A stretch of DNA of 64,000 bases, taken from assembly GCF_013388255.1 (NCBI RefSeq), contig NZ_CP058215.1, forward strand, positions 620,001-684,000, written 5' to 3'. The notes beneath the pieces are model-generated. The model was given only the letters and a program-made list of their open reading frames with translations, was not told the DNA's origin and made no database searches. The stretch comes from Methanolobus zinderi. GTDB lineage: Archaea > Halobacteriota > Methanosarcinia > Methanosarcinales > Methanosarcinaceae. Of this stretch, positions 11,447 to 20,223 are shown in pieces (position 1 is the first letter of the stretch; every line of letters begins with the position of its first letter). The position numbers were made by a program, and so were the translations under genes.

Positions 11447-14400
11447 TTAAAGCTTATCTCTTCCTCCTTTATTTCTCAGGAAAACAGCTGCAGATGCTGC
11501 TAGTGCAAGAACTGCCACTATTCCGAAAGGCATCCCGGTACTATTGTCATCTTCTGAATCTCCTGTATCTTCAGATTCGGCCGCTACATTTCCCTCAACT
11601 GTTTTTACTTCATCGCTATCATCAAAGACAACGCTGTCCTCGGATTCACTGCCCGTATTGGCCGCTGTTTCTGTTTCGGAAATCTCCTCTTCTGAGCCGA
11701 TTCCCAACAGCATCTTCTTAAGATACCATGGCATGCCGTCATCTGTATTTGTGCCCGAAGATACTTGCTCGTAATCACATGTAATTGTGAATGGGGAGAA
11801 TCCTGAAAGGTTTCTGACAGTAAAGTATGAATATGTTCCATCGTTTCTGGTGAACTCAGGTGTATAAGCTTCCCATGCAGGGTTTGACCAGTGCCTGAGC
11901 CTGACAGAACTTTTTACCAGAACCTTTCCGCTACGTTCGTTCAGAACTCTGAACTCGATGTTCCTGTCACTACCGTTGTTTACCAGGGTTTCGTTGTTGA
12001 AACTTATGTCAAAGTACTGGTACACGGAATCAGCTGAAAATCCGGAGTCTGTTACGTTGATACTGGATCTGTTGAGGAATTCGATCTTTGTCAGGATACC
12101 GGTACTTTCGTTTGTGGTATTGAAAGATATTGCAATAATACTTCCATGAATTCCATCATTATCTGTCCTTGAATCGTCAGTAGTGTTGAAAACCACCTGT
12201 GACTCATTGCCTGAAGTTGTTACGTTTGCAGACTGGTTGATGATAAAAGCGATATCATCATTGTTGCTTGCGGAAGAGGATCTTGTTACTGTCCACTCCC
12301 ATGAAGAGTTGTCTGTTCTTCCAATACTCTGGTTGCTGACGCTGACAGAGATATTGTAGATGCCCATATAGTAGTCATCCTGATTGAAGTACTGGCTGGT
12401 ATTGATGTTACAGTATGAGCTGTTGGATGAATCATCTGTGCTGGCATCAGTCGTCACTCCTGCACCATTTAACGGAGTGCCGTCAATGAACCATTCAAAG
12501 CTTGAGAGCAGTGTGCTGCTTATGCTGAAGTTAATCTCGTCCCCATAGAGTGATATCTGCTCCGCATCCTCAGGTGTTAATGTGTACTCAGGTTCCGGTG
12601 CGGCTCTTATGTTCATCAGAGAGGATGAGCTTCCGTTTGTGTTTGTTACAGTAAGGTTCACCGTGAAATTGCCGGAATCAAATATGTGAACCGGATTCTG
12701 GTCTGCGGATGTATTTCCGTCCCCGAAGTCCCATGACCAGCTTTCAACAAGTCCGGATGAATTATCGGTGAAGTTGACTGCAAGTGGTTCCGTTCCTCTT
12801 GTAACATTGGCTGAGAAATCTGCTATAGGCACGATTGCAACATTGATTAGATTGTCACCTGTGCTATTGACATTACCTGCAATATCTGTGAAAGTACAGT
12901 TGAAATCGATTGAGCTTACAAGTGTTCCGGAGTCACTGGCAGGAATGGAAATATTCCAGGAATAGTTACCTGAGTTTTCATCCATCTGGTGCTCCTGACC
13001 ATCCACCGTTATGTTTGCAAAGCTTATGCCGGCATTGTCAGTTACGTTCAACTCGATTGTGATATTGTCACCGGTATCTGCACTGACCGGCTTCTGTATC
13101 CAGCTATACGCCGGAGCTTCATTATCCAGCTTGAACACATTGGAAACGGAATGGATAGTATTACTGGCATTGTCAACAGCTCTGACGTGAAGATACCAGT
13201 CACCGCTGACGCTGTCATTTGTAAGGGTATCGCCACTGTTAAACGATGTCCATGAGCTGACCGAAGTCTCATCAACTGACTGGGTCCATGCAAATCCAAG
13301 TTCCTGAAGACCTGATACTGTATCGCTTGCACTTACTGTGGTACTATGGCTGGTGGCATATGTACTGCTGCCATTTGTACCAAAGCTGACAGAAGGATTC
13401 TCAGTATCGATCTTTGTGACATCGAATGCTGTGATATTCGTGTTTCCTGCAGCATCTTTTGCATACACAGTGTAGCTTCCATTGTTAGCTACAGTGAATG
13501 TGTGTGGGTCATTAGTTTCATTACCTGATGAACTAAAGTAAGCTGCATCCTGTACTCCGGCAGCCCATTTGACCTGTACTGAAGTAAGATCAGTGATATT
13601 TACGTCGATAGTTGCACTGGTGTTCTGCCAGTCGACTGGATTCCCTGATATCTCGATTACAGGCTTTGTAGAATCTATTGTAAAAGTAACATCTCTTGCT
13701 GAGGAGTTATCCATTGTGTCATTAGCGTAAACACGGAACATTGCGTTGTCTGTATTATCTTCGGGTAATGTGAATGAGCTGCTGTTTGTATTCAGCAGAT
13801 TCTCGATCTTTGTCCACGTGCTGTTAAAGAACCAGAGATCATATTTTACAGCATCATTCTCCGGGTCTGTTGATGTTCCCCACTCCACTGTAAGTGTCTC
13901 TCCGCCATTAAGTATCTGGTTCTCTGTAGGTGTAGTGAATTCTCCAGGAGTTGAAGGTGCCTCGTTTGCGGTTTTAAGAAGATATTCCTCGTATGCTCCG
14001 CCTTCAGCTGTAGCCTTTATTGTGATAGTGGTTATGTCTTCTCCAGAATACGAGAATGCTGCTGTGAAATTACCTTCGGCATCAGTGCTGCCTGATGTAT
14101 TTGAATCAAATGTACCGTTGGTTGCTGAGAATGAGACCGGCCAGTCAGATACTGTATTACCATTAGCGTCTTTCACAGTTGCTGTTACATTACATGCTGT
14201 GGTATAGTTGGTGGGATTTGATGTAAGGATTACCTGTGTTGGTGCTTCATTGTAAGAATAAGTGTTTATGTCTATAGGATCATATGTGTTAGTGAAATGC
14301 CAGGAAAGAATATCATGGTTTTCCCAAGCGCCACCTGTAGCTGCTGTGAAACCAATATATGCCTCTTCATAGCCTATGATTTCGCGAAGTGTCTGTCCTT

Positions 14401-15115
14401 GTTCTTCAAAATTATGAATTAACTGAGGATTGTCTGGTCTTGTATTTGTGGTGTTGATTCTTACTTCAATACTGTTAGTACTTGAATTATAGTCTATCCA
14501 AGTATGCTTTACATCATCGCTCCTTAAATTGATTTTATTAGGGTCTAGATCTGTTATGCTCAAAGAAGTTATATTTCCATTAATATTTACTCCTATATGG
14601 TTGCCTGCAGCGTCCGAGCTTGACCCTGACTCTACAGGTGAATTATCATAAGTATCGAATTCAACACCAATACTATTATTAATGTATTCATATCCAAGCC
14701 CCGATCCTCTACTACTTTTGTCATTTGAATTCGGCTGAATAACAAAAACTAGACCATCGGCTCCTTTGAGAGGATAGTTACCTCCAAGATTACTAATCTT
14801 GAACGTAAAATATGTACTGAATGAACTATCGTTTCCGATAGAGACTTTGTCCTTAAGGAACGCACTTCCATGCTGATCTACTAGGCTTGGAGTCAAGCGT
14901 AATGTATTGCTATTATACTGAGTTGCATTTCCATTCAATTGAAATCGCGAAACATCGGAAAAGTTTTCGTATATTGCTGTGATTGTTTTATTCTCCACAG
15001 CTTCTGCTGTTGGTATTGTGAGACTTAACGCAATTAAAAGTCCCAGTAAAAAAACAATTGTTTTTTTGGCTCTGTAGAAATCCTCATCTGAATCACATAG
15101 ACAACCTTGGCACAC
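11447..15115 (-). CDS. Large secreted lectin/Ig/PKD surface protein, 5' end disrupted by an IS element
   Basis: In the current 1,222-residue frame, residues 1-15 derive from the IS end and a GTG inside it; [19 protein letters not shown] onward is the native signal peptide. Domains in order are an L-type lectin-like domain (about 43-290: [28 protein letters not shown]), a bacterial Ig/invasin-type domain (about 292-385), several Ig/FN3-like segments (390-790), a PKD domain ([11 protein letters not shown] near 830) and a PGF-pre-PGF-like domain (about 1000-1120, ending [12 protein letters not shown]). Then come an acidic linker and a C-terminal MPFG-hydrophobic-basic tail like an archaeosortase signal. 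The original start was TTG 16091 beyond the IS. Expression now may be lost or driven from the IS. Confidence 0.85.
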
Positions 15116-15972
15116 CTGCCAAGGTTGTGCACTATTAGTTTCATTTTAATCTCTTTAACCTGATTCCAGTACTTCCTGGCCTTGATTTCTTCACCATATT
15201 TCCTTTTGAGCACTGAGAACGTAGTTTCAACAAGGTTTCTATTATGGTAGAGTTTTTCATCGAACTCTTGTATCATTTTCCTGCGGAACTTACCTTTTAT
15301 TCTTTTTCTCTTCCTGTGTCTTAAAGGGATAATAGCAATTGCTTGTAGTTGTTCTCTTGTTAGTGAATGTATGGCTTCTGAATCGTATCCTTTATCCATT
15401 AGATAGTATTTTGATCTTCGAGTTCTATGGCATTGCTTCAGCAATGCCTTTGCATGTTTTGTATCATGAACAGGTTTACCTGATATCTTAAAACCAGTAA
15501 CTAGCAACTTATCAGTATCAACAGATATACTTACTTTAAGAAATGATCTACGTTTTTTCCTTGTTCTGAGTGAATAATAGTAGCTACAATAACCACTTGT
15601 AAACCCGCTTGAATCAATAGCAGTAACTTCTATTCTTTCTCCATGTGAGTAGAACAGATCAAGTGTTTGCTTTAATAATCCATTGAAATAAACAGATTTA
15701 ATTCTTCTAACAAACTTATGAAGTGTAGTATAATGTGGAACTTGTTTTAATCCAATTCTGGACTTAACTGGATTCATCAATTGAATAAGTTCTACAATAC
15801 TTCTATAATCCGTTTTCAAATACTCCTTCAGCAAAACCAAAGCCATTAGCTGGTGTTGCGTATACTTCCTCTTGGAATACTTACAACTGTATATCTCCAA
15901 ATGCGAGTTTCCTGATGCAGCTAAAGCTGCATCAACAAACTTTAAGTACTTATTAGACAAAACACTAAACAT
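15034..15972 (-). CDS. IS5-like DDE transposase
   Basis: The 312-residue protein has the three catalytic acidic residues in AIDSSGF (D), LMDKGYDS (D) and [15 protein letters not shown] (E), the last with the Y-x2-R-type context of IS5/transposase-4 proteins. AAAGGGG precedes ATG 15972. The frame leaves the element at 15068 and stops only at 15034 in host DNA, so the last 11-12 residues are host-derived. Length and motifs are intact, so activity is plausible. Confidence 0.92.
15060..15067. repeat. Target-site duplication, left copy
   Basis: GTTTTTTT abuts the left IS end and is identical to 16072-16079. Confidence 0.88.
15068..15083 (+). repeat. IS terminal inverted repeat, left
   Basis: GGCTCTGTAGAAATCC, matching the opposite end at 15 of 16 positions. 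Confidence 0.9.
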
Positions 15973-16917: not shown

Positions 16918-17112
16918 ATGGCAGATAAGAAAAAGGCACCTGTTTTCTGTGAGAACTATTGCATCATCTGCAAGGGAGCACGCTCCGGGAACAGCCTGTG
17001 CAAGTCATTGCAGAACCTTGAGCTGAAGATCATGGGAAAGAATGGCTGTTTATGGGGTAAGGCAAGGACAGAATATTACGGTGTAACGCCTGATAAGCCG
17101 ATTCCAAAGTAG
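16918..17112 (+). CDS. Small cysteine-containing hypothetical protein
   Basis: The 64-residue basic protein has FCENYCIICKGARSGNSLC, then a later cysteine (NGCLWG). The C-x3-C-x2-C spacing suggests metal or disulfide binding, but I do not recognise the family. ACGGAGG precedes the ATG. It lies downstream of the flavodoxin and may be co-transcribed. The hairpin just after it ends transcription. Confidence 0.65.
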   Translation: MADKKKAPVFCENYCIICKGARSGNSLCKSLQNLELKIMGKNGCLWGKARTEYYGVTPDKPIPK

Positions 17113-17175: not shown

Positions 17176-20100
17176 TCAGTTTGCCTTGATATACTCGATC
17201 ATCTTCGGAGTTAGCAGTGGTGCTATCTGCGGAAGCATGTTCGGCATCAGATTCTCCATTGCCGACGGCATAAGATCCGGCATCTGCTCCTTCATGTGAT
17301 CGGGCATGGGTACTCTCTTCTCGACAGCCACAAGCATCTTGGGCATCACCTTTGGCATAAGGGATGGCATAAGAAGTGGCATCATCCTTGGCATCATTGG
17401 TTTCATGAGGGCATCCATTCCCGGTACGTATTTTACCGTCTTCATCATGGTCTGCATGTATGAAGGCATGGCATCGATCATGTCAGGCAGAAGTTCCACC
17501 ATCATCTCGGTCATGTTCTCGGGTTCCATGAGCTCGATCATCTTGTCGAAGGTCGCCCAGGCAACAAGTGCATCGTTTGTGGAATCCGGTATGTCGTAAC
17601 CAAGACTGCGGGCTGCAAGCGCACCAAGGTCCTGTATCTCCATATTGACATTATTCTCCTGTGCAGCCACCCTGAACTGAACAACACAGCAAGGACAAAG
17701 TGCGGCCATGATGTCAGCATCCTGATCCTCGGCTTCCTTAAGACGTACGTTACCAATTTTGCTGGCAACATCAGGCTCATCTATAAGCGTGACCACGGAA
17801 CCACAGCAGAGCGCTTTCTCACGGTTGTGCTCCATTTCCTTGAACTTTATACCGGGAATCGCCTTGAGTAGTTCACGTGGTGCATCATATATTCCCGCAC
17901 CGGCCCTGCCAATGTGGCATGAATCGTGCCATGCAACAGTCTTGTTCAGTGGTACCTTGAACTTGGGTTTGAGCACATCCAGCTTATCCATGAGGACTTC
18001 GGAATAATGCTTTGCTTCGATGTCAAAGTCCATACCGAGTTTCTCCGCCCACTGCGGGTAGATGGTCCTCCACATAAGCAGGCAGGCGGGACATGATGTA
18101 ACAACCGTCTTGGCACCTGCTTTCTGCATGTTGGCAATGTTCATTTTCAGTATTCTCTCAAAGACATCCCATTTTCCTGCAACCAGCATGGGTATACCAC
18201 AGCAGGCTTCCTTGTCTCCGAGATACGTGAAATCTATACCTGCATCATCAAGCAGCCTGACTGTTCCCACGGCAACGTCCTTCTCAACAAAGGATGCGGT
18301 ACATCCTGCGAAATAGGCGATATCAGCCTTGTCCTTGATTTTTGCCCGGATGTCATCCGGCATCCACTTGTCCCTGTCAGTTCTGTAGCTGGCCCAGATA
18401 TTCCTCTGATTATCAAGACTCTGTGCCATAATTTCAAAGGGTGGGATGGTCATCATGCCTCTCTTCTGGACAAGATTCTCCCTGAGAGTCATCCATGAGC
18501 GCTCGATGGGCAGGTCAAGCTGGCAGTAGTAATCACACATCTCACAGGTGGTACATGCAAGGAAGGTATCGGCCTGTTCCTGGTCAAGGTCCATCCTTCC
18601 GGCAAAGTATTCCTTGAGGAAGAACCACTTGCCTCTTGGTGACTGGGATTCCCAGCCCCTGCCGTAGTACTGGTCACATTCGTTGACACAGTATCCGCAC
18701 TGTGCACAGGTGTATGCATGTGATACGATATCACCGGGAATGCCTTTTGTCTCGCTGAATTCCTGTTTGTCCACCCCGGACATATTGCCCACCGCACGTG
18801 CCATTGGCTCAAATGTCTTTGCAAACGATAGTCCTGTCCTGAGCATCGGCTTGCCCGTGAGTGTCTCCGGGTTCATTATATCATCCGGATCGATCTGCTT
18901 CTTGAACTCCTGGATGGCTGGAAGTCGCTTGCCAAAGACGTTCTCTGCCTGTTTCGAGAAGTACAGTCCTGATGAGTAGATTCTTCCACCGTTCTCCTCA
19001 GCGATTTTAACAATACTCAGAGCAAGCGGGAATGCAAGATTGTACTTGAATGATTTTTCCGAGTGTGGCATGAAACAGAGCATAACTGCTTCATCACCTT
19101 TTGTAACCATGCCTTCCACGAGCACCGGCAGTCCGACCCTGTCACCGATCTCTTTGAACATGGTATCGATCTTGTCCACAGGAACCACAACTTCAGCAGG
19201 TATGAACGAGGGTCCGAGCCTCTTGACCTTCATGGACCTGAACCACTCCTCAGTCTCATGTTCTGCGATCTCTTCAGGCAGTACTTTTCCTCCTGCCTCC
19301 TCAATGACCTCTTTTAGACCGCTGACATCCCTTGATTCGGGATAGGCGAAATTACAAATATACGATTCAGGAAGCTCCGGCCTGTCTTCCTCAACTGTTT
19401 CACCGTAGTGTGTCTTGTATGGTGCACGGTTCTTCATGCCGGCCCACTGGGGATTGATGAATGAGATTGCCCATATGGGTATGTTCTTCTCCCCGGTCTT
19501 CCTGATAGCTTCCTTCATGCTGCTTGAATCCGGGAACTCCGCAGAGATCGCGGCGGTCTTTTCATAATCCCTGACCCTGAGGGTTACCTGGGTGATGATA
19601 CCGGTCGTTCCCATGGTGCCGATTATCTTATTGAGTTCCTCTCCTGAGAAATCCCTTACCTCACCGTTTGGAAGTACCACACGGGCGGATTCCATGGTAT
19701 CCTGTGACCAGCCATATTCATAACTTCCGTAACCTACGCCGTTCTGGGCAAGCCAGCCACCAACGGTTGCTGAAAGTGCACTTGAAGGTACAGCCTGCAC
19801 TGCGAGTCCTTCTTCATTGAGCTTTGTTTCCAGGTCGTACCAGACAATGCCTGCACCCACGGTAACAAGATGATTCTCCTTATCGACATCGATTATCTTC
19901 CGCATGGGAGTCACGTCTGCGACAATGCCTCCGCGCGTCGGGATAATTCCGCCGTAACCTGAAGATGCACCTGCCCTTGGTACCACGGGAATTCCGTACT
20001 TGCGCGCGAAATTCATAAGTTCGACTGCTTTGTCCTCATTGACAACCTTTACAATTGCAGCAGGTTTTGTATTGCCTACCACTTTTTTCACAAGGCCGGG

Positions 20101-20223
20101 TAACGCGCCTACATCATGTGTGTAGTAGTGTCTTTCCTTTTCACTGAAATTGACCCCTTTCCCGAACATGGACGAAAGCTCTTGCTTTTGTTCATCCTTT
20201 AGTTCATAAACCGTATTTGTCAT
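17176..20223 (-). CDS. FAD-linked D-lactate/2-hydroxyacid dehydrogenase fused to Fe-S/CCG domains
   Basis: At 1,015 residues this fuses a GlcD-like flavoprotein with a GlcF/HdrD-like Fe-S unit. It has an FAD-binding-4 domain (about 45-215: VVPRAGASSGYGG), an FAD-oxidase C domain (to about 470), two 4Fe-4S motifs (CAQCGYCVNECDQYYGRG and CTTCEMCDYYCQLDLP, about 525-595) and two cysteine-rich CCG-type domains (ACCGIP...SCPACL and DSCHIGRAG...ALCCGS, 650-870). The last 110 residues are a Met/Pro-rich tail with ten MP pairs, partly in a tetrapeptide rhythm. It would oxidise lactate or a similar 2-hydroxyacid and pass electrons to a membrane or thiol acceptor. CGGAG lies before ATG 20223, with a TATA box near 20252-20262. 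Confidence 0.88.
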   Translation of the reverse strand: MTNTVYELKDEQKQELSSMFGKGVNFSEKERHYYTHDVGALPGLVKKVVGNTKPAAIVKVVNEDKAVELMNFARKYGIPVVPRAGASSGYGGIIPTRGGIVADVTPMRKIIDVDKENHLVTVGAGIVWYDLETKLNEEGLAVQAVPSSALSATVGGWLAQNGVGYGSYEYGWSQDTMESARVVLPNGEVRDFSGEELNKIIGTMGTTGIITQVTLRVRDYEKTAAISAEFPDSSSMKEAIRKTGEKNIPIWAISFINPQWAGMKNRAPYKTHYGETVEEDRPELPESYICNFAYPESRDVSGLKEVIEEAGGKVLPEEIAEHETEEWFRSMKVKRLGPSFIPAEVVVPVDKIDTMFKEIGDRVGLPVLVEGMVTKGDEAVMLCFMPHSEKSFKYNLAFPLALSIVKIAEENGGRIYSSGLYFSKQAENVFGKRLPAIQEFKKQIDPDDIMNPETLTGKPMLRTGLSFAKTFEPMARAVGNMSGVDKQEFSETKGIPGDIVSHAYTCAQCGYCVNECDQYYGRGWESQSPRGKWFFLKEYFAGRMDLDQEQADTFLACTTCEMCDYYCQLDLPIERSWMTLRENLVQKRGMMTIPPFEIMAQSLDNQRNIWASYRTDRDKWMPDDIRAKIKDKADIAYFAGCTASFVEKDVAVGTVRLLDDAGIDFTYLGDKEACCGIPMLVAGKWDVFERILKMNIANMQKAGAKTVVTSCPACLLMWRTIYPQWAEKLGMDFDIEAKHYSEVLMDKLDVLKPKFKVPLNKTVAWHDSCHIGRAGAGIYDAPRELLKAIPGIKFKEMEHNREKALCCGSVVTLIDEPDVASKIGNVRLKEAEDQDADIMAALCPCCVVQFRVAAQENNVNMEIQDLGALAARSLGYDIPDSTNDALVAWATFDKMIELMEPENMTEMMVELLPDMIDAMPSYMQTMMKTVKYVPGMDALMKPMMPRMMPLLMPSLMPKVMPKMLVAVEKRVPMPDHMKEQMPDLMPSAMENLMPNMLPQIAPLLTPKMIEYIKAN

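Follow-up and report, generated by a model that had tools for sequence, protein, structure and literature searches.

A 1015-aa single-chain oxidoreductase encoded in the window, the 64,000-nucleotide stretch of Methanolobus zinderi DNA analysed here, ends in a conserved C-terminal domain that is new to Pfam and NCBIfam, the enzyme itself being of a known, GlcD/HdrD-like kind. The best explanation of the structural models is that this tail would be an autonomously folding accessory domain, in which four short helices precede two long helices built on a P-x-phi-phi repeat. We tentatively favour, at somewhat short of even confidence, a role as a monotopic docking domain that would bring the CCG clusters to methanophenazine or menaquinone as the carrier in the membrane; docking to a protein partner or to a second copy of the enzyme is almost as probable.

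Domain layout and the proline tetrad

Pfam detected two CCG stretches in the protein, the better of them at residues 763-851, and alignment revealed two complete CCG cysteine motifs whose cysteines are invariant across 56 sequences (Table 1). The preliminary description had placed a Met-Pro tail after the second CCG domain, and the tail does follow it, starting at about residue 882. A Pfam search of the whole protein returned zero domains in this region. The neighbours of the gene in the window are a flavodoxin, a 64-aa ORF and a divergent pyruvate kinase. The 64-aa ORF (16918-17112, forward strand) contains several cysteines, adjoins the flavodoxin gene and has no match in Pfam or NCBIfam. 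Farther off, a DDE_Tnp_1 transposase gene (15034-15972, reverse strand) adjoins a very large surface-protein-like ORF (11447-15115).

Table 1. Features of the tail-bearing gene, in window coordinates
Feature	Position	Strand	Basis
Whole gene, 1015 aa: FAD_binding_4, two 4Fe-4S motifs, two CCG domains, proline-tetrad C-terminal domain	17176-20223	-	ORF and Pfam
FAD_binding_4, residues 54-192	19648-20064	-	Pfam, E 8.8e-36
4Fe-4S dicluster region, residues about 503-571; invariant C506, C509, C512, C516 and C557, C560, C563, C567	18511-18717	-	Pfam and alignment
First CCG domain, residues about 634-745 (bounds approximate); invariant C641, C674, C675, C711, C714	17989-18324	-	Pfam and alignment
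Second CCG domain, residues 763-851; invariant C769, C806, C807, C843, C845, C846	17671-17937	-	Pfam and alignment
Met/Pro-rich, predicted helical C-terminal domain, residues 882-1015	17179-17580	-	AlphaFold2 helices 882-1014; conserved in relatives
Predicted long helix 1, residues 936-970; five consecutive MPxx tetrads, basic	17314-17418	-	AlphaFold2 and alignment
Predicted long helix 2, residues 975-1014; Pro tetrads, acidic	17182-17301	-	AlphaFold2 and alignment
Stop codon of the 1015-aa ORF	17176-17178	-	

The composition of the tail is strongly skewed. Residues 888-1015 contain 28 Met, 18 Pro and ten MP pairs, whereas the 887 residues before them have 33 Met in all; the tail Met count departs from the body Met frequency with a p value of about 3e-14. 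The 26 Met and ten MP pairs reported earlier for a tail of about 110 residues were recounted exactly in the corresponding 114 codons (17179-17520, residues 902-1015), and the MPxx spacing reported for part of it was likewise found, five of the ten pairs forming consecutive tetrads. When the tail was shuffled 20,000 times with its composition kept, ten MP pairs arose in 0.07% of shuffles and eight pairs of prolines spaced four residues apart in 0.035%; being this rare, neither spacing is due to chance.

Comparison of 43 sequences defined the repeat as the four-residue unit P-x-phi-phi, in which x is often polar or charged and phi is Met, Leu, Phe, Val or Ile. Proline occupies its tetrad phase in 81% of cases in helix 1 and 57% in helix 2. 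At phase P+3 of helix 1, Leu, Met and Phe occur at frequencies of 0.34, 0.33 and 0.33, with Pro kept. Among the relatives, Met exchanges with Leu, Phe, Val or Ile in helix 1 and over much of helix 2; some single Met positions are invariant. Since several MP pairs of the window protein are FP or LP in most relatives, proline rather than methionine is the conserved theme. The Met/Pro feature of the preliminary description is real, but the domain begins earlier than described, near residue 882 (window position 17580), and what is conserved is the Pro tetrad. The near-invariant tail residues include N991, P994 and Y1011. The domain is largely apolar; averaged over the relatives, helix 1 carries a mean charge of about +3.4 and helix 2 of about -3.8.

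AlphaFold2 modelling of the full protein from 56 sequences (mean pLDDT 84, pTM 0.82) predicted tail helices at residues 882-898, 901-910, 912-918, 921-932, 936-970 and 975-1014, and modelling of the tail alone predicted nearly identical helices (pLDDT 86.9, pTM 0.74). The hydrophobic moment of the two long helices, taken as the mean of 43 sequences, peaks at 90 and 94 degrees, a period of about 4 (max-over-angle shuffle p 0.007 for helix 1 and 0.001 for helix 2), and within the tetrad one position is polar or charged, the other three being mostly uncharged. In the window protein the moments are only 0.08 and 0.05 when taken at 100 degrees, the normal helix angle, at which the helices are not amphipathic. 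Helices rarely have a proline at every fourth residue, so that AlphaFold may have modelled these ones too regularly.

The preliminary description had found no known domain in the tail, and our searches agree. Foldseek returned 0 matches in the PDB at E <= 10 for the tail model, which is unusual for a helical model, yet no proof of a new fold; VIA found just two chains to align (best Z 2.0), too few by themselves to carry a claim of a new fold. Searching PDB sequences with the tail (best E 0.034, a designed solenoid) or with its profile (best E 0.074) produced no credible match, and BFVD gave one match at E 8.2. We found no description of a Met/Pro-rich CCG or GlcD-HdrD tail in the open-access literature, and the accessible part of the ANME paper PMC9012536 does not mention it. 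A transmembrane anchor was rejected: the tail contains no classical transmembrane segment, its Kyte-Doolittle mean over 19 residues reaching 1.17 at most.

Conservation, distribution and gene architecture

A search with the whole protein gave some match in all 60 related genomes. Another 24 genomes of the genus hold full-length, tail-bearing orthologues at 83-91% identity, and further ones are found across the family and order, so that the tail, sought among relatives as had been proposed, is present in Methanosarcinales and more widely. Searching with the tail alone, we obtained matches in 66 of 392 genomes of the phylum (15 of 136 genera), including a frameshifted relic (G176) and an interrupted gene (G036). 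In the latter (L071:7766-12439), an insertion of about 1.6 kb between the two CCG domains carries an ORF of 434 aa whose weak match to a DDE transposase falls below the Pfam cut-off. A GTDB-wide scan detected 185 stretches encoding tail relatives. The best 80 of these come mostly from bacterial MAGs, including Chloroflexota (Dehalococcoidia, Anaerolineae), Syntrophaceae, Zixibacteria, Gemmatimonadota, Actinomycetota and others; the archaea among them include some Methanoperedens and a Methanocellales MAG. Within two sampled bacterial phyla the tail is sporadic, occurring in 9 of 301 and 14 of 297 genomes with the centre genome counted in each. No relative was detected in a scan of viral contigs (39 stretches), and of 470 plasmid records in a tblastn search none covered 80%.

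Among the 24 orthologues within the genus, tail and body have median dN/dS values of 0.035 and 0.052, respectively, of which only the comparison between tail and body counts, because dS is near saturation. These sequence comparisons indicate that the tail is under purifying selection, and a random low-complexity extension was ruled out on the same values. Mean pairwise identity among relatives is 0.79 for the tail, 0.62 for the FAD part and 0.73 for the CCG part, the tail figure being inflated by the gathering of loci with tail patterns. The preliminary description had allowed that the tail might be absent from orthologues or a sequencing artefact; its presence in near and distant orthologues speaks for a real tail, and the recurrence of the same tail in many independent genomes ruled out a sequencing or frameshift artefact.

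In 56 of the best 80 loci (of 185), the gene is a complete ORF of 1000-1100 aa with a terminal tail; many of the others are cut by contig ends. Two genes are split, L064 into 626 and 398 aa and L082 into 583 and 444 aa, and in both the tail lies on the CCG half, not the FAD half. The L082 split could be a frameshift. L064 (6645-10047), from an archaeal genome of the same phylum, has an ArsR regulator, an FAD/Fe-S gene and a CCG-tail gene in a row, a two-subunit version of the enzyme. Two paralogues of about 900 aa (L174:8873-11614 and L175:8420-11110) have the same FAD/Fe-S/CCG layout and no tail. Next to them, in divergent orientation, is a gene resembling a winged-helix regulator by its reading, and a check of their neighbourhood showed no adjacent membrane-anchor gene. 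In a body-only tree of 79 sequences with these two paralogues as the outgroup, the tail-bearing proteins stand apart from the tail-less ones and Methanoperedens nests among bacteria, which suggests whole-gene transfer. The tail also occurs outside complete genes: G442 has a stand-alone intact 132-aa tail ORF (L189:5482-5877, reverse strand) and no CCG in its 7.2-kb contig, which, in a fragmentary assembly, is weak evidence of a separate gene. L160 is a tail fragment in a genome that also holds a complete copy, and L072, L184 and G811 are short relics.

In most loci the tail gene is solitary or follows a regulator gene, ArsR/MarR-type regulators being the commonest families among 83 tested neighbours. 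From 99 tail loci we selected the 71 whose ORF is at least 980 aa long and preceded by at least 400 nt; an ArsR-family regulator lies close upstream in 17 of them, and also in L064. All 18 of these ArsR proteins have a cysteine near the first helix. A FadL/TodX gene is directly upstream in five loci (L131, L133, L140, L148 and L151) and in three it stands between ArsR and the enzyme. In these three (L131, L148 and L151; order ArsR - FadL - enzyme), ArsR often has a second cysteine near the last helix. Single loci have a lactate-racemase-family gene upstream (L067), ArsP/HMA (L101) or an AhpC/TSA-family gene (L154), and in one relative a gene for a membrane-type 4Fe-4S protein (Fer4_5, NapH-like; L077:11490-12125, reverse strand) is directly upstream. 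No cytochrome b or other anchor gene is adjacent to the tail gene in the window.

Comparison with known enzymes

The FAD_binding_4 domain is shared with the D-2-hydroxyacid dehydrogenases LDHD, GlcD and LctD, to which the window enzyme adds the Fe-S, CCG and tail parts. The whole FAD part (model residues 8-456) aligns with mouse LDHD (Z 30.2, rmsd 2.8, 423 aligned), and structure comparison showed that it also resembles alkylglycerone-phosphate synthase and vanillyl-alcohol oxidases. The likeness to lactate/2-hydroxyacid dehydrogenases proposed earlier therefore holds for the fold but not for the catalytic metal motif. GHxGDGNxH...EHG(I/V)G, which we take to be the metal/catalytic motif of FAD-linked D-2-hydroxyacid dehydrogenases, is missing from the window protein, where the aligned region reads FMPHSEKSFKY and YSSGLYF. 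It is also missing from the tail-less paralogue and present in the tail-less Dld of related genomes (L186, L188). Because the motif is missing, the name "lactate dehydrogenase" for the tail enzyme is unproven, and its gene neighbourhoods point to the substrate in mixed ways. In G409, presumably M. acetivorans, the tail gene lies about 270 kb from the Dld of L186, which adjoins a gene that reads, by eye, like an archaeosine tRNA-ribosyltransferase. Identity of the tail enzyme with the M. acetivorans D-lactate dehydrogenase MA4631 was rejected: it is the separate tail-less Dld with GDGNLH (L186) that fits MA4631/MA4632 as given in the accessible part of PMC11619418.

The two ferredoxin motifs and two full CCG motifs are shared with HdrD/HdrB, GlpC and EtfD, and the CCG part scores Z 25.2 in alignment with HdrB and Z 25.6 with M. 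smegmatis EtfD; in the window protein, by contrast, CCG is fused to an FAD domain and the tail in a single chain. None of the curated NCBIfam models for TfrB, GlpC, LdhH and HdrB was reached (best score 143.8 against a cut-off of 800). Unlike HdrD, the enzyme has no cytochrome b subunit HdrE among its checked window neighbours.

Two systems offer functional parallels. SdhE of E-type succinate:quinone oxidoreductases is, in the accessible part of PMC2680327, a cysteine-rich, Hdr-related protein with no predicted transmembrane segment, whose amphipathic helices are thought to bind the membrane. Unlike the tail, it is a separate subunit; we found no sequence relation between the two, and the NCBIfam SdhE model matches only CCG residues of the window protein (E 0.0047). 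NDH-2, according to the accessible part of PMC6167311, is a single-chain flavoenzyme whose C-terminal domain anchors the enzyme and holds the quinone site. For the tail model we found no structural match.

Possible functions of the tail

The tail sits at what would be the electron-exit end of a flavin/iron-sulfur/CCG oxidoreductase. In the membrane-docking proposal, it would dock the CCG end onto the membrane surface, and electrons would pass from the substrate to FAD, the two 4Fe-4S clusters, the CCG clusters and finally the membrane carrier, probably methanophenazine in the methanogen and menaquinone elsewhere. Its role would be analogous, in a single chain, to that of SdhE for non-classical succinate:quinone/fumarate reductases and of the NDH-2 C-terminal anchor, which serve as precedents. 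This proposal is consistent with the position of the tail after CCG in full-length relatives, its retention with the CCG half in both split genes, the moment peaks of the two long helices, the lack of both a classical transmembrane segment and an adjacent anchor gene in the window, and the mostly solitary or regulator-linked gene. Against it, the long helices are not amphipathic at 100 degrees, and they may pack on each other or on CCG, leaving little exposed. The core, moreover, can work without a tail, since the tail-less paralogues of the same architecture lack an adjacent anchor, and the membrane Fe-S protein encoded upstream in L077 could provide an alternative electron route there.

The main rival is a protein interface, in which the hairpin would pack against a second copy of the enzyme or a redox partner of the ferredoxin, flavodoxin, Hdr or Etf type and place it at the CCG clusters. 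This reading, rather unlikely when taken singly, draws on the very high and uniform conservation of the tail (its identity inflated by tail-based collection), on the complementary charges of the two helices and on the lone ORF of G442, which suggests action in trans; however, no constant partner gene was found among the 83 tested neighbours.

Less probable still, the tail would cover or store a hydrophobic substrate, its apolar faces holding a lipid, hydrocarbon or aromatic compound and passing it to the flavin. The FadL/TodX genes directly upstream in five loci and the resemblance of the FAD part to alkylglycerone-phosphate synthase and vanillyl-alcohol oxidases would fit, but the tail follows the CCG half in split genes, and FadL turned up only in a few Syntrophaceae/deltaproteobacterial-type loci and is inapplicable to archaea. 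We consider it improbable that the tail merely braces the CCG part and binds no partner: the models do predict a compact unit directly after CCG, yet the same core exists in tail-less paralogues, and the near-invariant N991, P994 and Y1011 look beyond packing. Metal binding, raised in the preliminary description and taken here to be of a copper/silver type, is very unlikely, because for all the 26 Met, their MxxM-like spacing, the ArsP/HMA neighbour in L101 and the frequent ArsR-family regulators, Met exchanges with Leu or Phe, the three being about equal at the tetrad hydrophobic sites over 43 relatives with Pro kept.

Membrane docking could also be put more broadly. In a speculative version, which we think distinctly doubtful, the uncatalogued domain would embody a new fold principle, a hairpin of helices on a strict Pro-x-phi-phi tetrad of period 4 rather than 3.6, and would serve CCG oxidoreductases as a portable module for docking to the membrane carrier, spread across archaea and bacteria by whole-gene transfer and stand-alone in at least one genome.

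That a predicted helix should have proline at every fourth position is a structural oddity in itself. Our findings reveal a conserved domain that current family libraries have missed, on an enzyme common to methanogens, Methanoperedens-type methane oxidisers and many uncultured bacteria. If the tail does dock to the membrane, a single-chain CCG enzyme would need no cytochrome subunit to reach the quinone or methanophenazine pool.
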